NCBI RefSeq assembly: GCF_014218335.1
Contig: NZ_AP023367.1
Location: forward strand, 3,901,501 to 3,965,500
Source of the DNA: Anaerocolumna cellulosilytica
GTDB lineage: Bacteria; Bacillota; Clostridia; Lachnospirales; Lachnospiraceae
Length of the DNA stretch: 64,000 nt
Reading direction: 5' to 3'
How positions within the stretch are numbered: position 1 is the stretch's first letter; each line of letters begins with the position of its first letter. A model generated the notes under the pieces. It saw only the letters and a program-made list of their open reading frames with translations. It was not told the origin of the DNA and did not search any database. Shown here piece after piece: positions 22,335 to 63,332 of the stretch. A program made the position numbers and the translations under genes.

Positions 22335-22680
22335 AGGGGTTGTACTGGTTTCGACGGGGGTTTTGAAGTTGTGGAAGCCATTCGCGGCCTAGGACCGCGT
22401 CACCAACTTAGAATTAAATTTAAACGCAGACGATAATTTAGCGTACGCTGCCTAGCGGCAGCTGTCGAACTTAAGTTACTTGCGACTTAAGACCTCGGCA
22501 TCAAATTAGCAAGGCACTTTGCTTTCAAAGCTTTGAGAAAGTAAAAGAATTTATGAAGCTACTAAAGTCCATAGCCTGTCAATCGGCGATGTGACGGAGG
22601 GAATGTTAAAAGACTGACTGTAATGGGAGATGCCGCAATGAATGGGCTTTCGGACAGGGGTTCGATTCCCCTCAGCTCCA
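22335..22680 (+). ncRNA. ssrA: transfer-messenger RNA (tmRNA)
   Basis: The ribosome-rescue RNA. The 5' end GGGGTTG pairs with the 3' end CAGCTCC to form the tRNA-like acceptor stem (one G-U and one U-G pair). GGTTTCGACGGG near the 5' end and GGGGTTCGATTCCCC (T arm) near the 3' end are hallmark tmRNA sequences. The tag reading frame is at 22426-22455 and would add ADDNLAYAA before TAG. CCA is not encoded after the discriminator A, so it must be added. The partner smpB is in this window at 30.2 kb. Confidence 0.96.
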
Positions 22681-22740
22681 TATACGGCGGTAGCGTCCGA
22701 CCATTTTAAGGTCGTTACCAATGTGGGATACGTAATTGTA

Positions 22741-53874: not shown

Positions 53875-54203
53875 TCAGTATCCTCACTTTCTTTATATAC
53901 AACAAGTATACTAACTTTACGTATAGTATTTCCCAGTCCAGTAAAGATATCTTACTATTTACGAATTACAATTATTTAACAAATACCAGGAACATTTGTT
54001 TGTATATTGTGTAATAACATGTTATACTTAAATATATTAACAATTGGGAAACACTATCTCTAGTCAGGAAGTAGGCTAAATAAGCAAAATAAAGGTGACT
54101 TTCACTGCACCGGAATCTGTTTTTAGTGATTTAACTATTTCCATCACATTCAAAGACTGTTTCACAATTGCCTAAATTATTCTAAGAACAAAAGGAGAAT
54201 GGG
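53875..54203. other. divergent intergenic region
   Basis: About 330 AT-rich bases between the DUF2680-like gene and the pentapeptide-repeat gene. No repeats, RNA or clear promoters seen. Confidence 0.35.
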
Positions 54204-54851: not shown

Positions 54852-54896
54852 CAAAAAAATCCCTCCAATACACCAATTATGATGTACAAGAGGGAT
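54852..54896 (-). terminator. stranded original terminator of yebC
   Basis: In minus-strand sense ATCCCTC...GAGGGAT is followed by TTTTTTTG. It lies about 80 bases beyond the left copy of the yebC end and has no other gene to serve on that strand, so it is most simply the original yebC terminator, separated by the insertion. Confidence 0.78.
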
Positions 54897-54977
54897 AAAA
54901 AAATTTTGTTATAGTAAACTACTGGTAGTTAGGATTTTCTGTGAAATCTCTGAAACCTCTGAAATTACAGTTTTTCT

Positions 54978-55018
54978 TACTCATCCCAGTTATGATATAC
55001 TTCCTGTACATCATCATC
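54978..55018 (-). repeat. left att copy (duplicate of the yebC 3' end)
   Basis: Forty of 41 bases equal 62605-62645. In minus-strand sense it still encodes the YebC ending [13 protein letters not shown] followed by TAA. One base differs (55007). This is the element's far junction. Confidence 0.88.
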
Positions 55019-55059
55019 CAGAAGTAAGTTAGCAAGCTGTTAGGATATACTGTAATCAC

Positions 55060-55113
55060 CTTAAATCTCTGATAAATCAAGGTAAATCGACGATAAATCA
55101 ACTGATAAATGAC
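55060..55113. repeat. left arm-type repeats
   Basis: GATAAATCA (55071), GGTAAATCG (55081), GATAAATCA (55092) and GATAAATGA (55104) are direct repeats about 11 bases apart, some 50-95 bases inside the left att copy; a TTAAATC precedes them. They mirror the right-hand cluster. Confidence 0.65.
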
Positions 55114-55253
55114 TCGCAAAACTACTATATCTGTACACCATTACTGACTGCTTTTAAACGTCTTAATTGGTGACAAGTACATCATAGCAAAAGTGTGTGA
55201 CAGATATTTGTCAGGTTATTATGAACAAATAGTTTTTACGCAATTATCTCATT

Positions 55254-55697
55254 TTATCTCTCCTGTGGTTTTAATCCTGCCCAAATACTTAAAATCGGCA
55301 TTTCTCTGCTGCCATCTAATGGTATTAAATTATAATCTATTATTATTTGATTATCATGATAATTACGCTTATTAACTGTAATGTAATTCCCATAATAAGT
55401 ATAAAATTCATTAGTTGGATAGCGAGTGTCATCCACTACATAAATAACAATATTGCCATCAAAATATAAAATAGATGTTGTTGCGGGTCCATCCACTCCG
55501 AATTTAGTTATTCTTATCTTATCGGGAATACCTTTATTGTAATTATCCATAAATATAAGAAATCTTCCAATATTAAAATTTAATATTAAGTCAATTAATA
55601 CGTCCCAGTTTCGTGTCGCCATTTGTCTTGTGTAATCACGTGGTAATTCTTCTAGTTCTTTTCTTAATTGCATACTGAAATCTTCATAATATTCCAT
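55254..55697 (-). CDS. DUF4362-like protein
   Basis: A 147-residue protein without a signal peptide. KGIPDKIRITKFGVDGPATTSILYFDGNIVIYVVDDTRYPTNEF, read in pieces, resembles the core of DUF4362 proteins, in which DxIRIxxxTxxGDPxxxxLxYDGxxIxYxxDxxRD is conserved. Known members are usually lipoproteins; this one has only a cytosolic form, with helical segment RKELEELPRDYTRQMATRNWDVLIDLILN, read in pieces, in front. The ribosome site is weak. It is cargo of the yebC element. Function unknown. Confidence 0.6.
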   Translation of the reverse strand: MEYYEDFSMQLRKELEELPRDYTRQMATRNWDVLIDLILNFNIGRFLIFMDNYNKGIPDKIRITKFGVDGPATTSILYFDGNIVIYVVDDTRYPTNEFYTYYGNYITVNKRNYHDNQIIIDYNLIPLDGSREMPILSIWAGLKPQER

Positions 55698-55904
55698 TAC
55701 TTTATTTCCAGGATCTTTTTTTAATATATAATATGGAATATATTTATACTAAGTGAGTAATCCTTTAGCCCGATTGTTATAAGTCCTAATTCATATGTAA
55801 CATAGATTGTTGTTTCTATTAGTTAGAGCAAAGTGTTGAAAACCAATGGAAAAACATGTAAGATATTATTAACTAAAATCTTTACTGTTTGAAAGTGAGA
55901 ACAA

Positions 55905-56732
55905 ATGAAAACATATTTTATCTGTAATAATTGTGGAAATATAATTGATTATAACTCCAAAGATTTTGATGAGATCTTAGATGATATCTGTAATAGAGTA
56001 CATACTTGTACATGTGGTGAAGTATTAACAATGGATAACAGCTATCCCACATTATCAGCACAAGATTTTATATTCTCAGCTGATTTACTTTTTGGTAAAT
56101 CAAAAGAAATAGATAAGAAAATCTTAAACGAGATACACGACATTATTCAGGCAGAAAATTATGTAGTAGATAATACCAGGTTAGATAAGTACTTAAATAA
56201 ATATGAAGAAATAAAAGAGAGATACCCTGATAATAACAAAGCATACTATTTGACAATATCAGATGAATTCGACAGTTATTTAGTAAAACAAGAAAATGAT
56301 TATGACATGGTTGATATCATATCATTAAATATGCTTCTATCAAGAAACCGTTTCAGAAAGCCATATGTTATTATGGCACTTTCTATTATTGAACAATTAT
56401 TTAATAATTATTTTACGAAATTATCCGAATCAAAATTATCTCCATTTGGAGCTTCTACTTTTATTAAGGCATATGATACTTCTGGCATACAATCTTGTCT
56501 TAATATAATAGATTCGCTTTTAAATGAAGAATTAAAAAATAAAATGGATAATTATTTACTAGGATTTTATGATAGGTGGGCTACTTTTAGAAAGATAAGA
56601 AATGATATCATACATAGCAATAGCAAATATATTTCTAAAATCACATTAAAAAAAGTACAAAAATTATTAGATGATAGCATAGATGTTTTCGCCAATTTAA
56701 AAAGTGAGTTATATAAGAATAATAAAGGATAG
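55905..56732 (+). CDS. zinc-ribbon protein with a HEPN-like Rx4H C-terminus
   Basis: A 275-residue protein. An N-terminal zinc ribbon (C7xxC10, then C35xC37 in HTCTCGEV) is followed by a long helical region (about 60-270). The C-terminal helices contain FRKIRNDIIHSNSKYIS, where R232-N-D-I-I-H237 fits the Rx4-6H motif of HEPN ribonucleases (toxin and anti-phage proteins). Other HEPN-like traits are an all-helical fold and the RKxRNDIIH context. A nuclease role in defence or addiction is inference. No antitoxin gene is adjacent. GTGAG precedes the ATG. Cargo of the yebC element. Confidence 0.62.
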   Translation: MKTYFICNNCGNIIDYNSKDFDEILDDICNRVHTCTCGEVLTMDNSYPTLSAQDFIFSADLLFGKSKEIDKKILNEIHDIIQAENYVVDNTRLDKYLNKYEEIKERYPDNNKAYYLTISDEFDSYLVKQENDYDMVDIISLNMLLSRNRFRKPYVIMALSIIEQLFNNYFTKLSESKLSPFGASTFIKAYDTSGIQSCLNIIDSLLNEELKNKMDNYLLGFYDRWATFRKIRNDIIHSNSKYISKITLKKVQKLLDDSIDVFANLKSELYKNNKG

Positions 56733-56782
56733 ATGAGATATATCCCAGAACTCATCCTGTGTAAATTACCGATTACTATTAA

Positions 56783-57005
56783 TGAGTCTGTGAAAGTTTT
56801 TCTGTAAATAAGGATTTATTAGGTCTTCTATGATAAAATATTAAATCATAGGAGGCCTTTTATTATGGCAAGAGAAAAGAAACCAGTACACAGAGTACAA
56901 ATGACGGACGGAAAACGCAACATCATTCAACAACTTCTGCAGGAGTACGACATCCAGTCTGCAGAAGACATTCAGGATGCACTCCTATTTTTCTTCGATA
57001 GTTAA
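56783..57005 (+). pseudogene. IS256-family transposase remnant (5' end only)
   Basis: An ATG at 56865 after GGAGGCCTTTTATT opens a 46-residue frame starting MAREKKPVHRVQMTDGKRN and containing QQLLQEYDIQSAEDIQDAL, which is the N-terminus of IS256-family (mutator) transposases common in Lachnospiraceae. It then diverges and stops at 57005; the catalytic DDE domain (about 350 residues) is missing. The preceding GAGTCTGTGAAAGTTTTTCT at 56783 could be the left inverted repeat. No right end seen. Confidence 0.8.
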
Positions 57006-57089
57006 TTTAATATCAACTTTAAAAAAGCTCTTAACATGACGTAAATAAAAGTCGAAGCAAAAAACATTATATAAGGTTGATGATAGTAT

Positions 57090-57533
57090 TCAATGTAAAT
57101 ATAGATCCTTATAACGTTCTGGCAACGGATAGTCTTCTATATGTTCAAATTTTAGTATTTTTGGTATTCCAGGGTATGAAAGATCTAATGAAATTCTGTC
57201 TTTACCCACAGCTATATGCGGTCCGATAAATGGTTCAACTTCTATATCAATGATAAAATGCCAAGTACGATTGCCATTCGGTCGGTCAATATTCAAAATT
57301 TTAATGAACGAACTATCATAACCTGGTAAATAAGTCAAAACATTTTTATAATACTCGTCTATTGCTTTATCAATCGTAGGAGCTAGAGCAGTAATGATAA
57401 CATCTTGATACAATATATCCTGAGACTCTTCTTCAATTTGCTTTGCTGTAGTATTAACATAAGGATTATTTATAGTTAAGACAACCACAATTAATGTAGA
57501 TATAGTTGCGATTAAAATACACCTTTTTTTCAT
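57090..57533 (-). CDS. DUF3888-like exported protein
   Basis: A 147-residue protein with an N-terminal membrane/signal segment (RCILIATISTLIVVVLTINN) and an extracytoplasmic domain. DVIITALAPTIDKAIDEYYKNVL, FIKILNIDRPNGNRTWHFIIDIEVEPFIGPHIAVGKDRI and KFEHIEDYPLP, read in pieces, match the DUF3888 pattern (P-x-I-x-K-A-I-x-x-Y-Y; G-P-H-I-x-V-G). I chose the ATG at 57533, six codons into the open frame, because TGGAGTGAGCC precedes it. Cargo of the yebC element. Function unknown. Confidence 0.75.
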   Translation of the reverse strand: MKKRCILIATISTLIVVVLTINNPYVNTTAKQIEEESQDILYQDVIITALAPTIDKAIDEYYKNVLTYLPGYDSSFIKILNIDRPNGNRTWHFIIDIEVEPFIGPHIAVGKDRISLDLSYPGIPKILKFEHIEDYPLPERYKDLYLH

Positions 57534-57551
57534 TGGCTCACTCCATTTCAA

Positions 57552-58068
57552 ATTCTTTTTATATATTATGCTAATACGTAATTAGAAGTATTCCAATACA
57601 ATCGTTACTATCGAACAAGCAAGTTTATTTGTATCCTCGAACAGACAATTCCAAAAATATAAGGAGTCTCTCTAACTTTATGAGATCTCCTCTCATACAG
57701 CAAATTCATTATTGTAACCTGTGATGGCAGCAGTTTTTGGTATGCAACATAACATCTTGCCTATGATAGTCAAACGCTGTATTTTCCTAGCGTATTTTAC
57801 TTTAGGGATAAGATTTAGTTGCGTCTAGTTGAATAGATACTATTATCTGCTGCCATGCTTACAATAATAATTTCAGATTTTCACAAATTTCGTGTTACAA
57901 ATCACTCATATTTTCCGTATAATTACTGTAAAAGCTAAGGGGAAGAACCTCCGATAAATAAAATATAAAGGCACAGTATTAATTGTCTTACAGTTACTAC
58001 TCCTCATATCAGTATCTAATAGTTACGGATAATAAATAAAATAAAGATGAGTACCGCCATTAATAGAT
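57552..58068. other. non-coding stretch inside the mobile element
   Basis: About 515 bases without a gene. ATGGCAGCAG (near 57725) and CTGCTGCCAT (near 57850) form an inverted repeat with a loop of about 115 bases. An imperfect AGGAGTCTC.../...GAGATCTCCT dyad is near 57661. Their meaning is unknown. Confidence 0.4.
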
Positions 58069-58761
58069 TTAATCGTTTAGTATGGTCTGTAGCTTTTTCA
58101 CATACCTTGATAGTTTCATTCTGTCTTCTTTGTTAGACCAGTTCAATACATATGGGATATCCTTTTTATCAATTTCTCCTGTAGCTATTCCAATTAGTAT
58201 TCGTTTATCTTCTGGTGAAATATCTTTCATATTTTCCAAATCCATTAAAATGTTAATATCGTCATATTGGTTTTTATTATCTTTATGCTTTTCTAATTCT
58301 TCTTTAGGTTTACAATTCCAATCGTCTTTTCTTTTCTTTGCGTTATAATAATCCCTTAAATCTAGTGCCTCACATTTAAGCTGAACATAAAGGTTATCAA
58401 TAAATGGCATGTTAATGTTATACACTTTATCAGAAACACCATCAAGCATATTATAAAGATGTACTTGAAAGTCGCTAAATAATTCGTTACTCTCCAAATG
58501 ATACATTTTAGCAAATATTTTAGCCCATCCCTCCACTACTCCATCTTGATTTAGAAGTAGTTCATAAATTGGCTCGTATTCTTTTGCTCTGTATAATTCC
58601 TCAACTTTAATTATAATTTCCTTACTGCACTTTTTGTAATTACTCCTCATTATTGTTTCTCTAAAACATTCAAATGAGTTAACTGGAGTCTCCTGTAAGC
58701 TTCTGTTGACTATACCATTCTTTCTGCCGTTTCCTCTTATACACAATTGTCTTTTTGACAT
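58069..58761 (-). CDS. unknown protein, faintly sigma-factor-like
   Basis: A 230-residue cytosolic protein, mostly helical and highly charged, that I do not recognise. The middle (LLNQDGVVEGWAKIFAKMYHLESNELFSDFQVHLYNMLDG, read in pieces) and the ending (SPEDKRILIGIATGEIDKKDIPYVLNWSNKEDRMKLSRYVKKLQTIL) have the look of region 2 and region 4 helices of small sigma-like proteins found on integrative elements, but no diagnostic residues prove it. Basic N-terminus MSKRQLCIRGNGRKNG. GGAAAGGTGATA precedes the ATG. Cargo of the yebC element. Confidence 0.55.
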   Translation of the reverse strand: MSKRQLCIRGNGRKNGIVNRSLQETPVNSFECFRETIMRSNYKKCSKEIIIKVEELYRAKEYEPIYELLLNQDGVVEGWAKIFAKMYHLESNELFSDFQVHLYNMLDGVSDKVYNINMPFIDNLYVQLKCEALDLRDYYNAKKRKDDWNCKPKEELEKHKDNKNQYDDINILMDLENMKDISPEDKRILIGIATGEIDKKDIPYVLNWSNKEDRMKLSRYVKKLQTILND

Positions 58762-58877
58762 ATTATCACCTTTCCTATTCGCTGATTGTTATAGTTCTCT
58801 GCAAAAGCGATGTAGGAATTTTTGATAGAGTGTGACATGACTTTGAATGGTAGTTTTTGTAATATCAAAAAGTATAA

Positions 58878-58912
58878 TAAAAAGAAGCTAACAGTAATTC
58901 ACTGTCGGCTTC
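58878..58912 (-). terminator. terminator of the recombinase-like/HNH pair
   Basis: In minus-strand sense AGAAGCCGACAG...CTGTTAGCTTCT is followed by TTTTATT. It lies 28 bases after the HNH stop. Confidence 0.8.
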
Positions 58913-58939
58913 TAAATTAACTTTATAAATAATATTCGA

Positions 58940-59485
58940 CTAGGTAAGATTTATATAAGCCCACAACTTGTTTTCGGACCAAATCATCTCATTTAATAAC
59001 ACCTCTTTATCTCCAATAACCATAACCCTCTTGCCCTCTTTTGTACTTTTGATAATTACATTATTAGTTGCATAATGAAACAACCTATGATGGTTAGGGC
59101 AGAGAATTACAACATTTTCTGGTGATTGCGAGCCTCCTTGTGATAGTGATTTTATATGGTGAGCCTCACAGTAATAATTTCCGTTGTCTATTAGAAAATT
59201 ATAGCCACATACTTGACATTTATAGTCATGTTTTTTCTTTAGTTCTTTAACAATTCGTTGGTATCTTTTTATTCTGTTTATTTTTTCTTCTTCTGTCTGA
59301 TTATCTGGGAGATCTACATCCTCCAAATAATCCCTCTGAATTATCAAGTCTATTTCTTCATCATAAGTACTTGGGTTAGTATCTGAATATTTCTCTTGAC
59401 TTGATTTAACATCAATACTATGAACATATGAAATAGTTGGTAAGATATCTTCCAGATTAAATAATTTATATAATGTGGTTTCCAT
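58940..59485 (-). CDS. HNH endonuclease
   Basis: A 181-residue protein with a C-terminal HNH nuclease domain: a CxxC zinc knuckle (KCQVCGYNFL), CEAHHIKSLSQGG (catalytic HH), ENVVILCPNHHRLFH (Asn and the second CxxH). This is the McrA/type IV-like HNH class found in defence systems and mobile elements. The N-terminal 85 residues have no recognised fold. The frame begins at a GTG two codons earlier; the ATG is preferred. It overlaps the upstream gene end by about 20 bases, so the pair is translationally coupled. Confidence 0.88.
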   Translation of the reverse strand: METTLYKLFNLEDILPTISYVHSIDVKSSQEKYSDTNPSTYDEEIDLIIQRDYLEDVDLPDNQTEEEKINRIKRYQRIVKELKKKHDYKCQVCGYNFLIDNGNYYCEAHHIKSLSQGGSQSPENVVILCPNHHRLFHYATNNVIIKSTKEGKRVMVIGDKEVLLNEMIWSENKLWAYINLT

Positions 59486-60659
59486 TTTCACCTTTACACT
59501 TTCTACAAGCTAAATATTTTTTTCCATCTTCTTTTAGCTGTACTAAAACCCATTCTTCACTTACAGCTTCCACCAAACTACCACAAAAAGGACACTTTAC
59601 TTCTGGCGTTCCACCTTTTTTAACTATATACTTTCTATCAATTTTTGTGTCACCATAAAAGAACTGATGTATTTTCTTGTTAATATTTTCTTTACTATAA
59701 ACGTCATCCATAAGGTTATAAAATTTTTGGGTAGACTTTTCTGTTAATTTTAACACAGTAAAGATATCCATACCTTTATCAAGCATTTCAACAATTCTTC
59801 TGACAGCAAATATTTCTCCTGATTGACTACCTATAAAGTCTTTCATTATTTTTAGAAAGTTGCCATAATCCGGAGAGTTACTTCTTTCTTTTTCAGATTT
59901 AATATAAGGTACGCCATTATGCTTTATAAATAACTTGTTTTCTTGTTTTGAATAAAGTTCTAAAATGTGATCTCTGACTTTTAAATAACTCTTAAAATGT
60001 TTAATCAGTTCATAATCAAGAGGTAATTCGAAACCATTAACCATTATTAGTTCATTTTCTAAATCCAAATCATTTAGCTCTAATAAGACCACTGTCAAAT
60101 CTTTAAGGGCGAATTTAAGGATAAGCATAACTGGTAAAACTGAAACAAATCGATGGTACTTTTGTATGTATTTCTTAATTCCTGTTTGTTCACCCTCATA
60201 GTATTCATTTACTTCGTCATAAATTTCAGTTATATCATATGTATTTAAATATTCATTCAAACCATTGGTAAGTAATTCATATTGTTCATCGGTAGCTATA
60301 TCTTTGCTTTCTGTCTTTCTCAATCCAGCGATTATCTCTTTGTATCTAAATATAAATTGATTATACAGCTCATAATTTGTAAAAATATCGTTCCTTATGC
60401 CATAATTATCTGATAAGAACTTAAAAAAATCTATTAACTTTGCAATATACGTGTTAGCAGTATTCTGGGCAGTTATACTACTATTAATAATATAGTAGCT
60501 AAGGCTTTCAATAAGGTCATCAACAGTTAAAATTGTAAAATAGTTATTGTCAAATTCATTGTTATCATTACCGCACTTTTCAAATAAGTACTCAATAAAC
60601 ACCTTAAGCTTTGTATTTTTGTTTTCCTTACTATAATCATATAAATTAAAATCAGCCAT
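59466..60659 (-). CDS. degenerate tyrosine-recombinase-like protein with a C-terminal zinc ribbon
   Basis: A 397-residue protein. Residues about 1-120 look like the helical core-binding domain of phage integrases; about 170-335 follow the catalytic-domain layout (beta-hairpin VNGFELPLDYELIKHFKSYLKVRDHIL, then FAVRRIVEMLDKGMDIFTVLKLTEKSTQKFYNLM). The box I Arg and the box II His positions are not recognisable; one Arg and a Tyr (KFYNL) remain. A four-Cys zinc ribbon (C356xxC359, C385xxC388) ends the chain. Probable DNA-binding partner of the overlapping HNH nuclease gene, catalytically altered. Not recognised as a named family. Confidence 0.65.
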   Translation of the reverse strand: MADFNLYDYSKENKNTKLKVFIEYLFEKCGNDNNEFDNNYFTILTVDDLIESLSYYIINSSITAQNTANTYIAKLIDFFKFLSDNYGIRNDIFTNYELYNQFIFRYKEIIAGLRKTESKDIATDEQYELLTNGLNEYLNTYDITEIYDEVNEYYEGEQTGIKKYIQKYHRFVSVLPVMLILKFALKDLTVVLLELNDLDLENELIMVNGFELPLDYELIKHFKSYLKVRDHILELYSKQENKLFIKHNGVPYIKSEKERSNSPDYGNFLKIMKDFIGSQSGEIFAVRRIVEMLDKGMDIFTVLKLTEKSTQKFYNLMDDVYSKENINKKIHQFFYGDTKIDRKYIVKKGGTPEVKCPFCGSLVEAVSEEWVLVQLKEDGKKYLACRKCKGENGNHII

Positions 60660-60710
60660 TATCCACCACCATCTATTTTCAAACCATTATATCACAAATT
60701 ATTCCAATTG

Positions 60711-60745
60711 AAAAGGAAGCTAACAGCTAAAATCCGCCAACTTCC
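60711..60745 (-). terminator. terminator of the serine recombinase gene
   Basis: GGAAG...CTTCC in minus-strand sense, with an inner GTTGGC/GTTAGC partial pairing, followed by TTTTCAATT. It resembles the hairpin after the HNH gene (both carry GCTAACAG/CTGTTAGC), so they may be related. Confidence 0.6.
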
Positions 60746-60823
60746 TCTAAATACATACTTCTATTATTTGCTTATGTCGACTACTTTTTCGTTTCTAACA
60801 GTTTTCCCTCGGCTTCTCGCTTT

Positions 60824-61462
60824 TCATATGGATACTCCTTTGAATGACGTTTCAATTTGTCCAGTAAGACCCAGTTCTTTCAATCGTCTACAGAGAGTAG
60901 CCTTGCTTACCCCTGTGTATTCACAGATTTTACGGACGGACATTTTCTTCTCCTTGTACAGCTCTATAGCCAGCTCTAGGGGCTTACTATTCTTCTTCGG
61001 TCTACCCATAGGCACTCCACGCTTAATAGCCATAGCTCTGCCCTCTTTACAGCGTTCTAGCAGCAATCTACGCTCAAACTGTGATAGTCCAGAGAACACG
61101 GTCAGCATAAACTCCCCAGATGGGGAAGCAGTGTCCAGCCATGCCTCATTCAAGGACTTAATATAACAGCCCTTTTCTGTAATCTGTGCTACTAGCTCCA
61201 GCATATCTCTGGTAGAACGTGATACCCTTGTCAGCTCTTTTACAATCACAGTATCCCCAGCCTGTAACTCTGATAACATTTTCTGTAGCTCCTGTCTATC
61301 CATCTTAGTTCCTGCAATCTTTTCTTGATAGATAATCTCACAGCCAGCTTCCTGTAGTGCTTCAATCTGACGGTCAAGGTTCTGGTGGTCTGCCGATACT
61401 CTGGAGTAACCTATCTTTCTACCAGTTACTTTGATTTCTGTTTCTGATGTTTTCTTCTTCAT
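60824..61462 (-). CDS. serine recombinase (resolvase/invertase family)
   Basis: A 212-residue small serine recombinase. The catalytic Ser is in KIGYSRVSADHQNLDRQ, the Arg residues in DRQELQKML and ELTRVSRSTRDM, and the E helix/linker in SGLSQFERRLLLERCKEG. The C-terminal helix-turn-helix is SVRKICEYTGVSKATLCRRLKE. Such enzymes resolve or invert DNA. The ATG follows AGGAGGAACGGAGA, 24 bases after the end of the integrase frame, so they form one operon. A serine and a tyrosine recombinase together in so small an element is noteworthy. Confidence 0.93.
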   Translation of the reverse strand: MKKKTSETEIKVTGRKIGYSRVSADHQNLDRQIEALQEAGCEIIYQEKIAGTKMDRQELQKMLSELQAGDTVIVKELTRVSRSTRDMLELVAQITEKGCYIKSLNEAWLDTASPSGEFMLTVFSGLSQFERRLLLERCKEGRAMAIKRGVPMGRPKKNSKPLELAIELYKEKKMSVRKICEYTGVSKATLCRRLKELGLTGQIETSFKGVSI

Positions 61463-61485
61463 TCTCCGTTCCTCCTACATATCCA

Positions 61486-62422
61486 CTAGATTGCTAACGC
61501 ATTTAAAGGGCTTGTTCTAGCTCCTATTTCTACAGTAGTTACACTTTCCATTGATTGTAGATATATTTTCGTAACATCTATCTTGCTGTGTCCTAACAAT
61601 CGAGAAAGAGTGTATAAATCACAGCCATTTTAATTGTGTTTGTGCATAATAGTGCCTTGCCGTATGTGGGCTGATACGAATTTCCTCTCTGACATTACAA
61701 GCTGAACCACATTCAAGTATAATCCTCTCTACTGTTTCAACTGTAAGGATTTTACCTTTTTGAGATAGAAATAAATACTCCGTGTCATATCCTGTCTTGT
61801 CTTTAATGTAATTTTCTCTAACCCTAAGATATTTTAACAGATACTTATTAATCGAAGCTGTGATAGGAACGTGACGTATCTTTTTCCCTTTACCCAGTAT
61901 ATTTATATAGATTGTGCGAATGTCTGACATCTTAAGATTACATAATTCTGAATTACGGATACTAGAGTCAAATAACATTATTAAGATGAACTTATTGCGT
62001 ATATCTAAGAAGCGTGAACCATTGTAGTACCTAATCATATCTTTAACTTCACCGTCATTAAAAGTACTTATAAGATTTAGTGGCTGTTTTTGACTTCTTA
62101 CTCTGTCAACTGGATTGTCTGTAATATATCTCTCATTAACACAGTAAGTAAAGAAAGCACGAAAGCATTTAATCAATCCGTTAATGTAGCTCTCTTTCAA
62201 TCCCTTATCAGCCAGATAATTTACATAAGCTTGAATTACCTTATGGCTTACTTCACATACCTCTGTTAACTCGTATTCTACCTCAATGTAGCGGAAGAAA
62301 GATAGATTATTATTCTTGTAGCTCTTTGTTGTTCGTTCTGACAACTTGCGTAGTTTACAGTCGAATAAAAATTCCGTTAATACCTCTTGTAACGATAGTT
62401 TCTCTTTGAGAGATTTAGACAT
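61486..62422 (-). pseudogene. tyrosine integrase, interrupted by a frameshift near its catalytic end
   Basis: The integrase of the yebC element. An intact frame of 267 residues from the ATG at 62422 (AGG ribosome site GGAGG) covers the core-binding domain and catalytic Arg (SSIRNSELCNL), Lys region (GKGKKIRHVPI) and box HTARHYYA. It then stops at 61619 (QLKWL*). Another frame continues without a break (NGCDLYTLSRLLGHSKIDVTKIYLQSM... to TAG at 61486) and holds the missing His (LLGH) and Tyr (KIY). The switch is at CAATTAAAATGGCTGTG, an A-run, and needs +1 (or -2). It is either a real mutation, a sequencing error or programmed frameshifting. Confidence 0.85.
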
Positions 62423-62519
62423 AAAAATAACCTCCATACATTCCGCCAGTGACGGTGTACAGAGGTTCTAGTAGTATATGCTATTACAGTTTTCAAAATG
62501 TCCAGTACATCATCACTGG

Positions 62520-62584
62520 GCAATAAATCACTGTTAAATCACTTTGTAAATCATTAATAAATCGCTTCAAATACCGATAAATAA
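62520..62584. repeat. right arm-type repeats
   Basis: AATAAATCA (62522), TTAAATCAC (62534), GTAAATCAT (62546), AATAAATCG (62557) and GATAAATA (62576) form direct repeats about 11-12 bases apart between the integrase start and the att copy, a typical site for an integrase's arm-binding domain. Confidence 0.68.
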
Positions 62585-62603
62585 AGGCTTCCAGACTTCC
62601 AAC

Positions 62604-63332
62604 CTACTCATCCCAGTTATGATATACTTCCTGCACATCATCATCTTCATCCAGTAAGTCCAGAGTACGGTTCATCATCTTAATATCCTGTTCATTGGTC
62701 AATGCTACCCAAGTTTGGGGAATCATAGTTACATCTGCCTGCACCATAGGTATTCCAGCCGTTTCTAAAGCTTCACGAACAACGCTGAAGGAATCCGGAT
62801 CAGTAAGCACTTCAAAGCTGTCTTCTTCCTCAGCGAAATCTTCTGCGCCGGCATCAAGAGCAATCATCATCAGTTCATCTGCTTCCAGACTGCATTCTTC
62901 CTTATCTATAATAATCTGACCTTTTTTATCAAACATAAAGGATACACAGCCAGGAGTTCCAACATTACCGTTTCCTTTTGTAAATGCATTTCTTACGTTG
63001 GAAGCTGTACGGTTTTTATTATCGGTAAGCGCTTCAACGATAATAGCTATACCATTAGGTCCATAGCCTTCATAAGTAACTAACTCATAATTTACTGCGT
63101 TTGCATCTCCGGCTGCCTTTTTAATACTTCTATCAATGGTATCATTAGGCATGTTATTGGATTTTGCCTTCGCTATTATGTCTTTTAAACGGCTGTTACT
63201 GTTAGGATCAGGTCCGCCTTCTTTAACAGCTACTGCAATTTCTCTACCTAATTTAGTGAATATCTTTCCCTTGGCAGAGTCGTTTTTTTCTTTTTTATGC
63301 TTAATATTGGCAAACTTGGAATGTCCTGACAT
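62604..63332 (-). CDS. yebC: YebC/PmpR family regulator
   Basis: A 242-residue protein of the YebC family. It is widely annotated as a transcriptional regulator; recent work on relatives links them to translation of proline-rich stretches. [18 protein letters not shown] is the family N-terminus, and the ending [12 protein letters not shown] is standard. The frame opens 27 codons earlier; the ATG at 63332 follows AAAAGGAGAAAGAAT. The 3' end overlaps the right att copy and was rebuilt by the integration, so the gene is intact. It has lost its original terminator. Confidence 0.95.
62605..62645 (-). repeat. right att copy (within the yebC 3' end)
   Basis: The 41 bases that match 54978-55018 (40 of 41). 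They encode the last residues of YebC and lie about 180 bases from the integrase start. Confidence 0.88.

Follow-up and report, generated by a model that had tools for sequence, protein, structure and literature searches.

In Firmicutes, integrative and conjugative elements (ICEs) and integrative and mobilizable elements (IMEs) integrate at the 3' ends of rplL, rpmE, rpsI, rpmG, lysS, and guaA, as set out in sections of two papers (PMC4701971, PMC5704250) whose main texts do not mention yebC. No paper on yebC as an integration target was found among the matches listed in a literature search, in agreement with the initial annotation of the DNA considered here, which knew of no description of this site. 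The accessible text of a 2026 integrase-prospecting paper (PMC12884075) does not name yebC either; its database or supplements may list yebC sites. The present work concerns a segment (54978-62645) at the 3' end of yebC in a 64,000-nucleotide stretch of the Anaerocolumna cellulosilytica genome (the window). With a probability of roughly 0.9, this segment is an integrative element that inserted site-specifically into a protein-coding gene and rebuilt it. An integrative element at this protein-coding target is described nowhere among the matches listed, and it is part of a wider family. The target belongs to a family with a role in translation: Bacillus subtilis YebC2 eases ribosome stalling at polyprolines according to PMC11990639, and the relief of such stalling by this family is also treated in PMC12234827. 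The gene in the window is placed only in the YebC family.

The likeness to the ICEs and IMEs of Firmicutes, where those papers describe their anatomy, is that a tyrosine integrase gene adjoins the target and that the direct repeats hold the 3' end of a conserved gene. The differences are that most integrases in the relevant section of PMC4701971 are about 400 residues long, whereas the complete integrases found here are about 300, and that there is no relaxase among the eight scanned open reading frames (ORFs) of the window element. The enzymes resemble the simple Xer-related tyrosine recombinases, which are XerC/XerD-like and consist of a core-binding and a catalytic domain only (PMC8138268). 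In the corresponding part of that paper, simple enzymes are counted in 27 phages and 12 ICEs, as against 410 and 211, respectively, for enzymes with an arm-binding domain. Unlike the simple enzymes described there, those reported here lie at gene 3' ends, and phased repeats are present inside the ends of the window element.

A direct repeat of the end of yebC

The target gene (62604..63332, minus strand) encodes a protein of 242 residues with Pfam TACO1/YebC domains (3e-33 and 1.6e-61). In a mechanical repeat search, its end (62605..62645, minus strand) is one copy of a 41-bp direct repeat; the second, distal copy (54978..55018, minus strand) is identical at 40 of 41 positions, has the same orientation, and is spaced 7627 bp from the first. 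This is the duplicate, some 7.6 kb away, on which the initial annotation had based its proposal. That annotation had also considered that the copies might belong to a common unrelated repeat. Across the genome (5,430,627 bases in one contig, allowing up to 3 mismatches) the 41-bp sequence is found at exactly two places, which are the two element ends, and a reversed control pattern gives no match in the same 5.43 Mb.

The final 13 codons and stop of the window yebC are taken to be the element's own copy, and the distal copy is regarded as the original end of yebC. A terminator-like hairpin just outward of the distal copy (54852..54903, minus strand), recognized by eye, would then be the native yebC terminator. 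The stop codons differ (TAG after the proximal copy, TAA after the distal one), and a scripted removal, in which the part of yebC before the repeat is fused to the distal copy, yields the same 242-residue protein.

A XerC/D-type tyrosine integrase gene (in-frame part 61619..62437, minus strand; Pfam and NCBIfam) lies beside the proximal copy, and arm-like repeats lie inside both ends, both as the earlier description had it. Four TAAATC repeats are present at the right end (62524..62563, with starts at 62524, 62535, 62547, and 62558, 11-12 bp apart) and four at the left end (55062..55099, with starts at 55062, 55073, 55083, and 55094, 10-11 bp apart). By comparison, the whole interior (55131-62479) has 5, and the same strand of the 64-kb window has 48. 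A second motif at the core and arms, TTATGATAWAC, gave 10 matches in the end segments, where 200 shuffles gave 0.75 on average and 5 at most. It was set aside because it had been chosen from the very sequences tested, and it is also similar to a -10 box.

The same arrangement in other genomes

Eight genomes, counting that of the window, have yebC, an integrase gene of this kind directly behind it, cargo, and then a second copy of the yebC 3' end (41-153 bp). The other seven are a Lachnospiraceae metagenome-assembled genome (MAG), RGIG4233 (L021; repeat 150/153, element 6.6 kb); Anaerosporobacter faecicola (L022/L062; 120/137, 12.5 kb, integrase broken); a member of another family of the same order (L064; 96/116, 7.1 kb, integrase broken and of 33% identity); G404 (62/62, 18.0 kb, a stop within the integrase frame); G578 (54/55, 12.1 kb); G356 (50/53, 8.45 kb); and a Herbinix MAG (G982; about 42 bp, 13.3 kb, with a complete integrase 68% identical to that of the window). 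When the two repeat copies are compared by codon, with a changed stop counted as synonymous, five of the eight pairs are identical or differ only synonymously (2 differences in the window, 3 in L021, 0 in G404, 2 in G578, 3 in G356). The synonymous and non-synonymous differences number 2 and 1 in G982, 12 and 4 in L022, and 14 and 6 in L064, giving 38 and 11 over all eight pairs. Since the differences are mostly synonymous, the elements carry translatable yebC ends.

In the Herbinix MAG, a decayed second integrase start (L191 14853-15145) lies behind the distal copy, indicating two yebC-site elements in tandem, and this resembles the IME accretions described in a section of PMC5704250. Remnants of integrase genes are found behind yebC elsewhere: relics in L023 and L024, with no second yebC copy within the 10 kb examined; tiny pieces seen by eye in G006 and G008; and tblastn matches in G010 (E 5e-5) and G004 (0.002). 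The integrases 0.8-1.0 kb behind yebC in three surveyed genomes (L141, L151, and L134) appear to be native xerD genes, located behind spoIIM-like or proC-like genes (named by eye), rather than parts of elements.

A phage contig carries the complementary arrangement. In the IMG/VR contig L039 (72,221 bases, of which 18.6 kb was examined), an integrase gene of the same kind (46%) is preceded by the codons QNVYHNAEFPEGWDE-stop, and genes for a phage-type ligase, ribonucleotide reductase, endolysin, and tail proteins lie on both sides of it; yebC itself has no match in the whole 72-kb record. Judged from this sequence, yebC 3' codons beside an integrase gene would be just what the attachment site of an incoming element (attP) should look like.

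These comparisons also bear on whether the 41-bp repeat could have arisen by ordinary duplication or homologous recombination, with the integrase a mere bystander. The conservation of yebC 3' ends and the native xerD-like gene 0.8-1 kb behind yebC in some family genomes would fit such an origin; however, the same boundary gene recurs in eight genomes, with the integrase directly behind yebC each time, and an attP-type site is present in a phage contig, so that this alternative is highly improbable.

Unoccupied versions of the site are found within the genus. Among 15 genomes searched and 12 loci compared, the order argR, yebC, a variable interval, and a gene for a large protein (1250 residues) is conserved. 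The distance from yebC to the next conserved gene, taken from match ends, is 393 bp in G002, 1.1 kb in G014, 1.2 kb in G011, 2.6 kb in G012, 3.1 kb in G005 (the genome of L024, with an integrase relic), 3.6 kb in G009, 5.6 kb in G006, 6.4 kb in G008, 9.1 kb in G010, and 8.7 kb in the window, where the next conserved gene is the large gene or, in G006, G008, G010, and the window, a 130-residue gene that precedes it. The interval therefore differs in length and is almost empty in some other species, three of which (G002, G011, and G014) count as having an unoccupied site.

Together, the repeat, the eight genomes, the attP-like site of the phage contig, and the short distances in relatives argue for a site-specific integrative element that restores yebC, as had been proposed from the window alone. 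On entry, an attP with roughly the final 13 yebC codons would have recombined with the 3' end of the chromosomal gene (attB). The simple XerC/D-type integrase may use the conserved VQxVYHN codons as its core site, presumably with help from the phased TAAATC sites that lie within each end.

The integrase and its leader hairpin

The integrase of the window is XerC-like (NCBIfam 2.6e-42, below the family cut-off), and the integrases of this kind have core-binding and catalytic domains and no arm-binding domain. In the window the frame stops at 61619, before the catalytic tyrosine, and the portion with this residue follows just downstream and out of frame (61489..61629, minus strand), a break that the initial annotation missed. 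Because of this break the window copy is probably stranded, that is, no longer self-mobile. Complete frames are present in L021, G578, G356, and G982. In a tree of 24 sequences, from which the more distant L064 enzyme (33% identity) was left out, five yebC-adjacent integrases, the phage integrase, and one linked to htpG form a single clade (support 97/98), and the target label switches within this clade. An Enterococcus faecium plasmid (L053 4001-4908) also carries an integrase of 36% identity, annotated as two pieces, beside type I restriction genes.

Profile searches, each of which counts the window's own genome, show where such integrases lie. In the family (E 1e-40 or better) 10 of 250 genomes match, with one integrase gene beside htpG, three beside yebC, and six without yebC in the flanks examined. 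In the class (1e-50) there are matches in 5 of 391 genomes, four of them adjoining yebC and one (G399) starting 180 bases from a contig end; in the phylum (1e-60), 3 of 398 genomes match, one beside yebC (the window), one beside guaA, and one beside a DUF59 gene (SufT-like, by eye). At the guaA relative (G1312; L207-L208), a 155-bp stretch of the guaA 3' end is repeated exactly, at a spacing of 16.9 kb, and the leader hairpin is also present (see below); this distant integrase relative can be likened, by its target, to the guaA-specific genomic islands. A further degraded piece of the guaA end lies just inside the 155-bp repeat of this genome. For the htpG- and DUF59-linked relatives, the available DNA (5.7 and 9.5 kb, respectively) shows the end of the target gene only once, so guaA is the only target besides yebC confirmed by a repeat.

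The leader of the integrase gene contains a terminator-like hairpin (62429..62467, minus strand) whose 3' arm includes the Shine-Dalgarno sequence GGAGG; a T run and the probable integrase start codon (62420-62422) follow. All 11 leaders that were folded (window, L021, L022, L023, L024, L039, L064, L044, G404, G578, and G356; L044 needed 125 rather than 75 bases) have a hairpin and a T run before the start codon, with the Shine-Dalgarno sequence in the 3' arm. A scripted version of this rule holds for 13 of 14 family members, the exception being L064. Of 216 other ORFs, only one satisfies it: none of the 49 in the window, where ORFs of at least 150 residues were used and the integrase gene itself is the one match among 50, and 1 of 167 in 13 other loci. 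A hairpin that overlaps the Shine-Dalgarno sequence and the start codon is present also at htpG, guaA, and the DUF59-like gene.

From these leader sequences, we infer that the hairpin would supply yebC with a new terminator and at the same time serve as a lid on integrase translation: by ending at the integrase start, it would hide the ribosome-binding site, so that transcription of yebC would trigger no excision. It is possible, if somewhat doubtful, that the hairpin is a replacement terminator and nothing else, its overlap with the ribosome-binding site having no regulatory role. A new terminator would be useful to any element that separates a gene from its own, and the hairpin sequences do vary from element to element; on the other hand, the overlap with the Shine-Dalgarno sequence and start recurs in 13 of 14 relatives and at the three other target genes, compared with the single case among 216 other ORFs. 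A broader proposal, for which the odds seem about even, is that one lineage of simple XerC/D-type integrases has become specialized for conserved protein-coding genes, entering them at the 3' end (yebC and guaA, with htpG and the DUF59-like gene as probable further targets), and brings along a complete repair cassette made up of replacement codons, a new terminator, and the hairpin of that terminator, which doubles as an RNA lid over the start of the integrase gene. Such a cassette would be common to phages, defence islands, and satellite-like elements, and the lid would couple integrase silence to transcription of the host gene.

Cargo, carriage, and meaning of the element

Next to the integrase of the window element lies a gene for a small serine recombinase of the resolvase/invertase type (60824..61462, minus strand; Pfam, and phrog_125 at 3.6e-60), which is present in seven of the eight elements. 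It is followed by a gene for a 397-residue protein with C-terminal CxxC pairs and no assigned family (59466..60659, minus strand) and, overlapping that gene, an HNH endonuclease gene (58940..59491, minus strand; Pfam, PADLOC, and PHROGs). The initial annotation had called these two a recombinase-like/HNH pair. The HNH assignment stands; the 397-residue protein as a degenerate tyrosine recombinase was rejected, there being no Pfam match above the cut-off, no PHROG, and a profile comparison probability of 2.5%. Its AlphaFold model is unusable (predicted local distance difference test, pLDDT, 36.7). Relatives outside its own genome amount to one (25%) in 61 genomes and one (27%) in 392 genomes, with none in the viral contigs, plasmids, and phages searched. 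The 25% relative, in L041 (1054-2433), precedes an HNH gene and terminase-looking prophage genes recognized by eye, which is a hint only.

The remaining cargo consists of genes for a 230-residue protein (58069..58761, minus strand) with a relative (36%) in the yebC element of the Herbinix MAG; a DUF3888 protein (57090..57551, minus strand; Pfam 2.1e-22); a 275-residue helical protein with an RNDIIH motif (55905..56732, plus strand); and a 147-residue protein of unassigned family (55254..55697, minus strand). There is also the relic of an N-terminal transposase-like fragment (56865..57005, plus strand), identified by eye against a transposase-like ORF in L182 and presumably of the IS256 type. 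The 275-residue protein had been called HEPN-like: its motif is of a HEPN-like kind, which makes the protein a possible HEPN protein. A fold search with the predicted model of this protein (pLDDT 51.8) gave no match at or below E 0.001. Elsewhere in the window, a dispersed repeat upstream of the flanking pentapeptide gene (54041-54180) has 16 more partial matches in the genome (36-160 bp, 71-86% identity) and belongs to no Rfam family at the gathering score, and a transfer-messenger RNA (tmRNA) gene with the tag ADDNLAYAA is located at 22336-22683.

As the initial annotation had noted of conjugation genes, neither these nor a relaxase gene is matched among the eight ORFs of the window element scanned against Pfam, and the element is thus not classed as an ICE or IME. 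Matches to phage-defence families are found in three of the eight elements, where the PADLOC scan covered the eight ORFs of the window and ten proteins from L064, A. faecicola, and G404: Avs4 in L064 (2.5e-188), a type I restriction-modification system with a TIR/SpbK-like gene and a DpdB/DndB-like gene in A. faecicola, and a SIR2 protein in G404. A defence role for the window element itself is guesswork prompted by its HNH nuclease, in which the PADLOC matches span the HNH portion. Replication-initiator-like genes occur in L021 and G404.

Phage satellites such as phage-inducible chromosomal islands (PICIs) are small integrated islands, and the elements resemble them in this respect; G578, in addition, has a terminase-small-subunit-like gene and antirepressor genes. 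Unlike PICIs, the window element has no PICI regulatory or packaging module identified in the PHROGs scan. The phage-type genes of G578, the same kind of integrase and attachment site in the 72-kb phage contig, and a weak match of the 275-residue protein to a virion structural family (PHROGs, E 0.0059; the only phage-type packaging match in the window) could instead be the traces of a decayed prophage. This origin is unlikely: no strong capsid or tail match is present among the 28 ORFs scanned with PHROGs (7 from the window, 4 from L021, 7 from G578, 3 from G356, 1 from G404, and 6 from G982, with L062 and L064 left out), and sizes of 6.6-18 kb recur across distant lineages. Because no relaxase is present among the scanned ORFs and some relatives have phage-type genes, such islands might be carriers of cargo, in some cases for phage defence, that are moved mainly with or by phages; this is the weakest step of the proposed mechanism.

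Several observations weigh against the interpretation of the segment as a site-specific element of this family. The evidence is all computational, from genome sequences. The window integrase is frame-broken, those of L022 and L064 are broken as well, and that of G404 has an internal stop; L064 is also the element in which no serine recombinase was found. The hairpin rule was devised after the hairpins had been seen, and several of the 14 members are closely related (the window, L023, and L024 are near-identical). Use by a phage is suggested by a single viral contig, further viral scans being empty or weak (29-30%), and the phage and plasmid record collections yielded only relatives below 60% identity. 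Only three of the ten family genomes with a match at E 1e-40 or better have the integrase next to yebC. In a sample not selected for the integrase (completeness at least 90; yebC matched in 107 of 110 genomes), this integrase lies within about 1.5 kb downstream of yebC in 1 of 107 family genomes, the window's own, where two loci covered only 308 and 575 bp downstream of the gene. With this one occupied genome among 107, the yebC site is specific yet seldom occupied. Finally, the pentapeptide gene that flanks the element does not occur at any of the 12 loci compared, a relative of 75% DNA identity being located elsewhere in G009, and the nearly empty sites come only from other species. The comparison that the initial annotation had suggested, of yebC loci with and without an insertion, thus gives near-empty loci within the genus but not the exact pre-insertion junction of this strain.

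With the segment read as an integrative element that rebuilds its target, yebC joins the documented sites at which mobile DNA lands in Clostridia. The presence of defence-family genes in three of the eight elements makes the uncharacterized cargo at this site a source of candidate new defence systems. Short integrases that have no arm-binding domain and a natural target in a conserved gene might serve as tools for DNA insertion in gut anaerobes, and the idea of a terminator that doubles as a lid makes it possible to test how an element located right behind a host gene prevents expression of its integrase.

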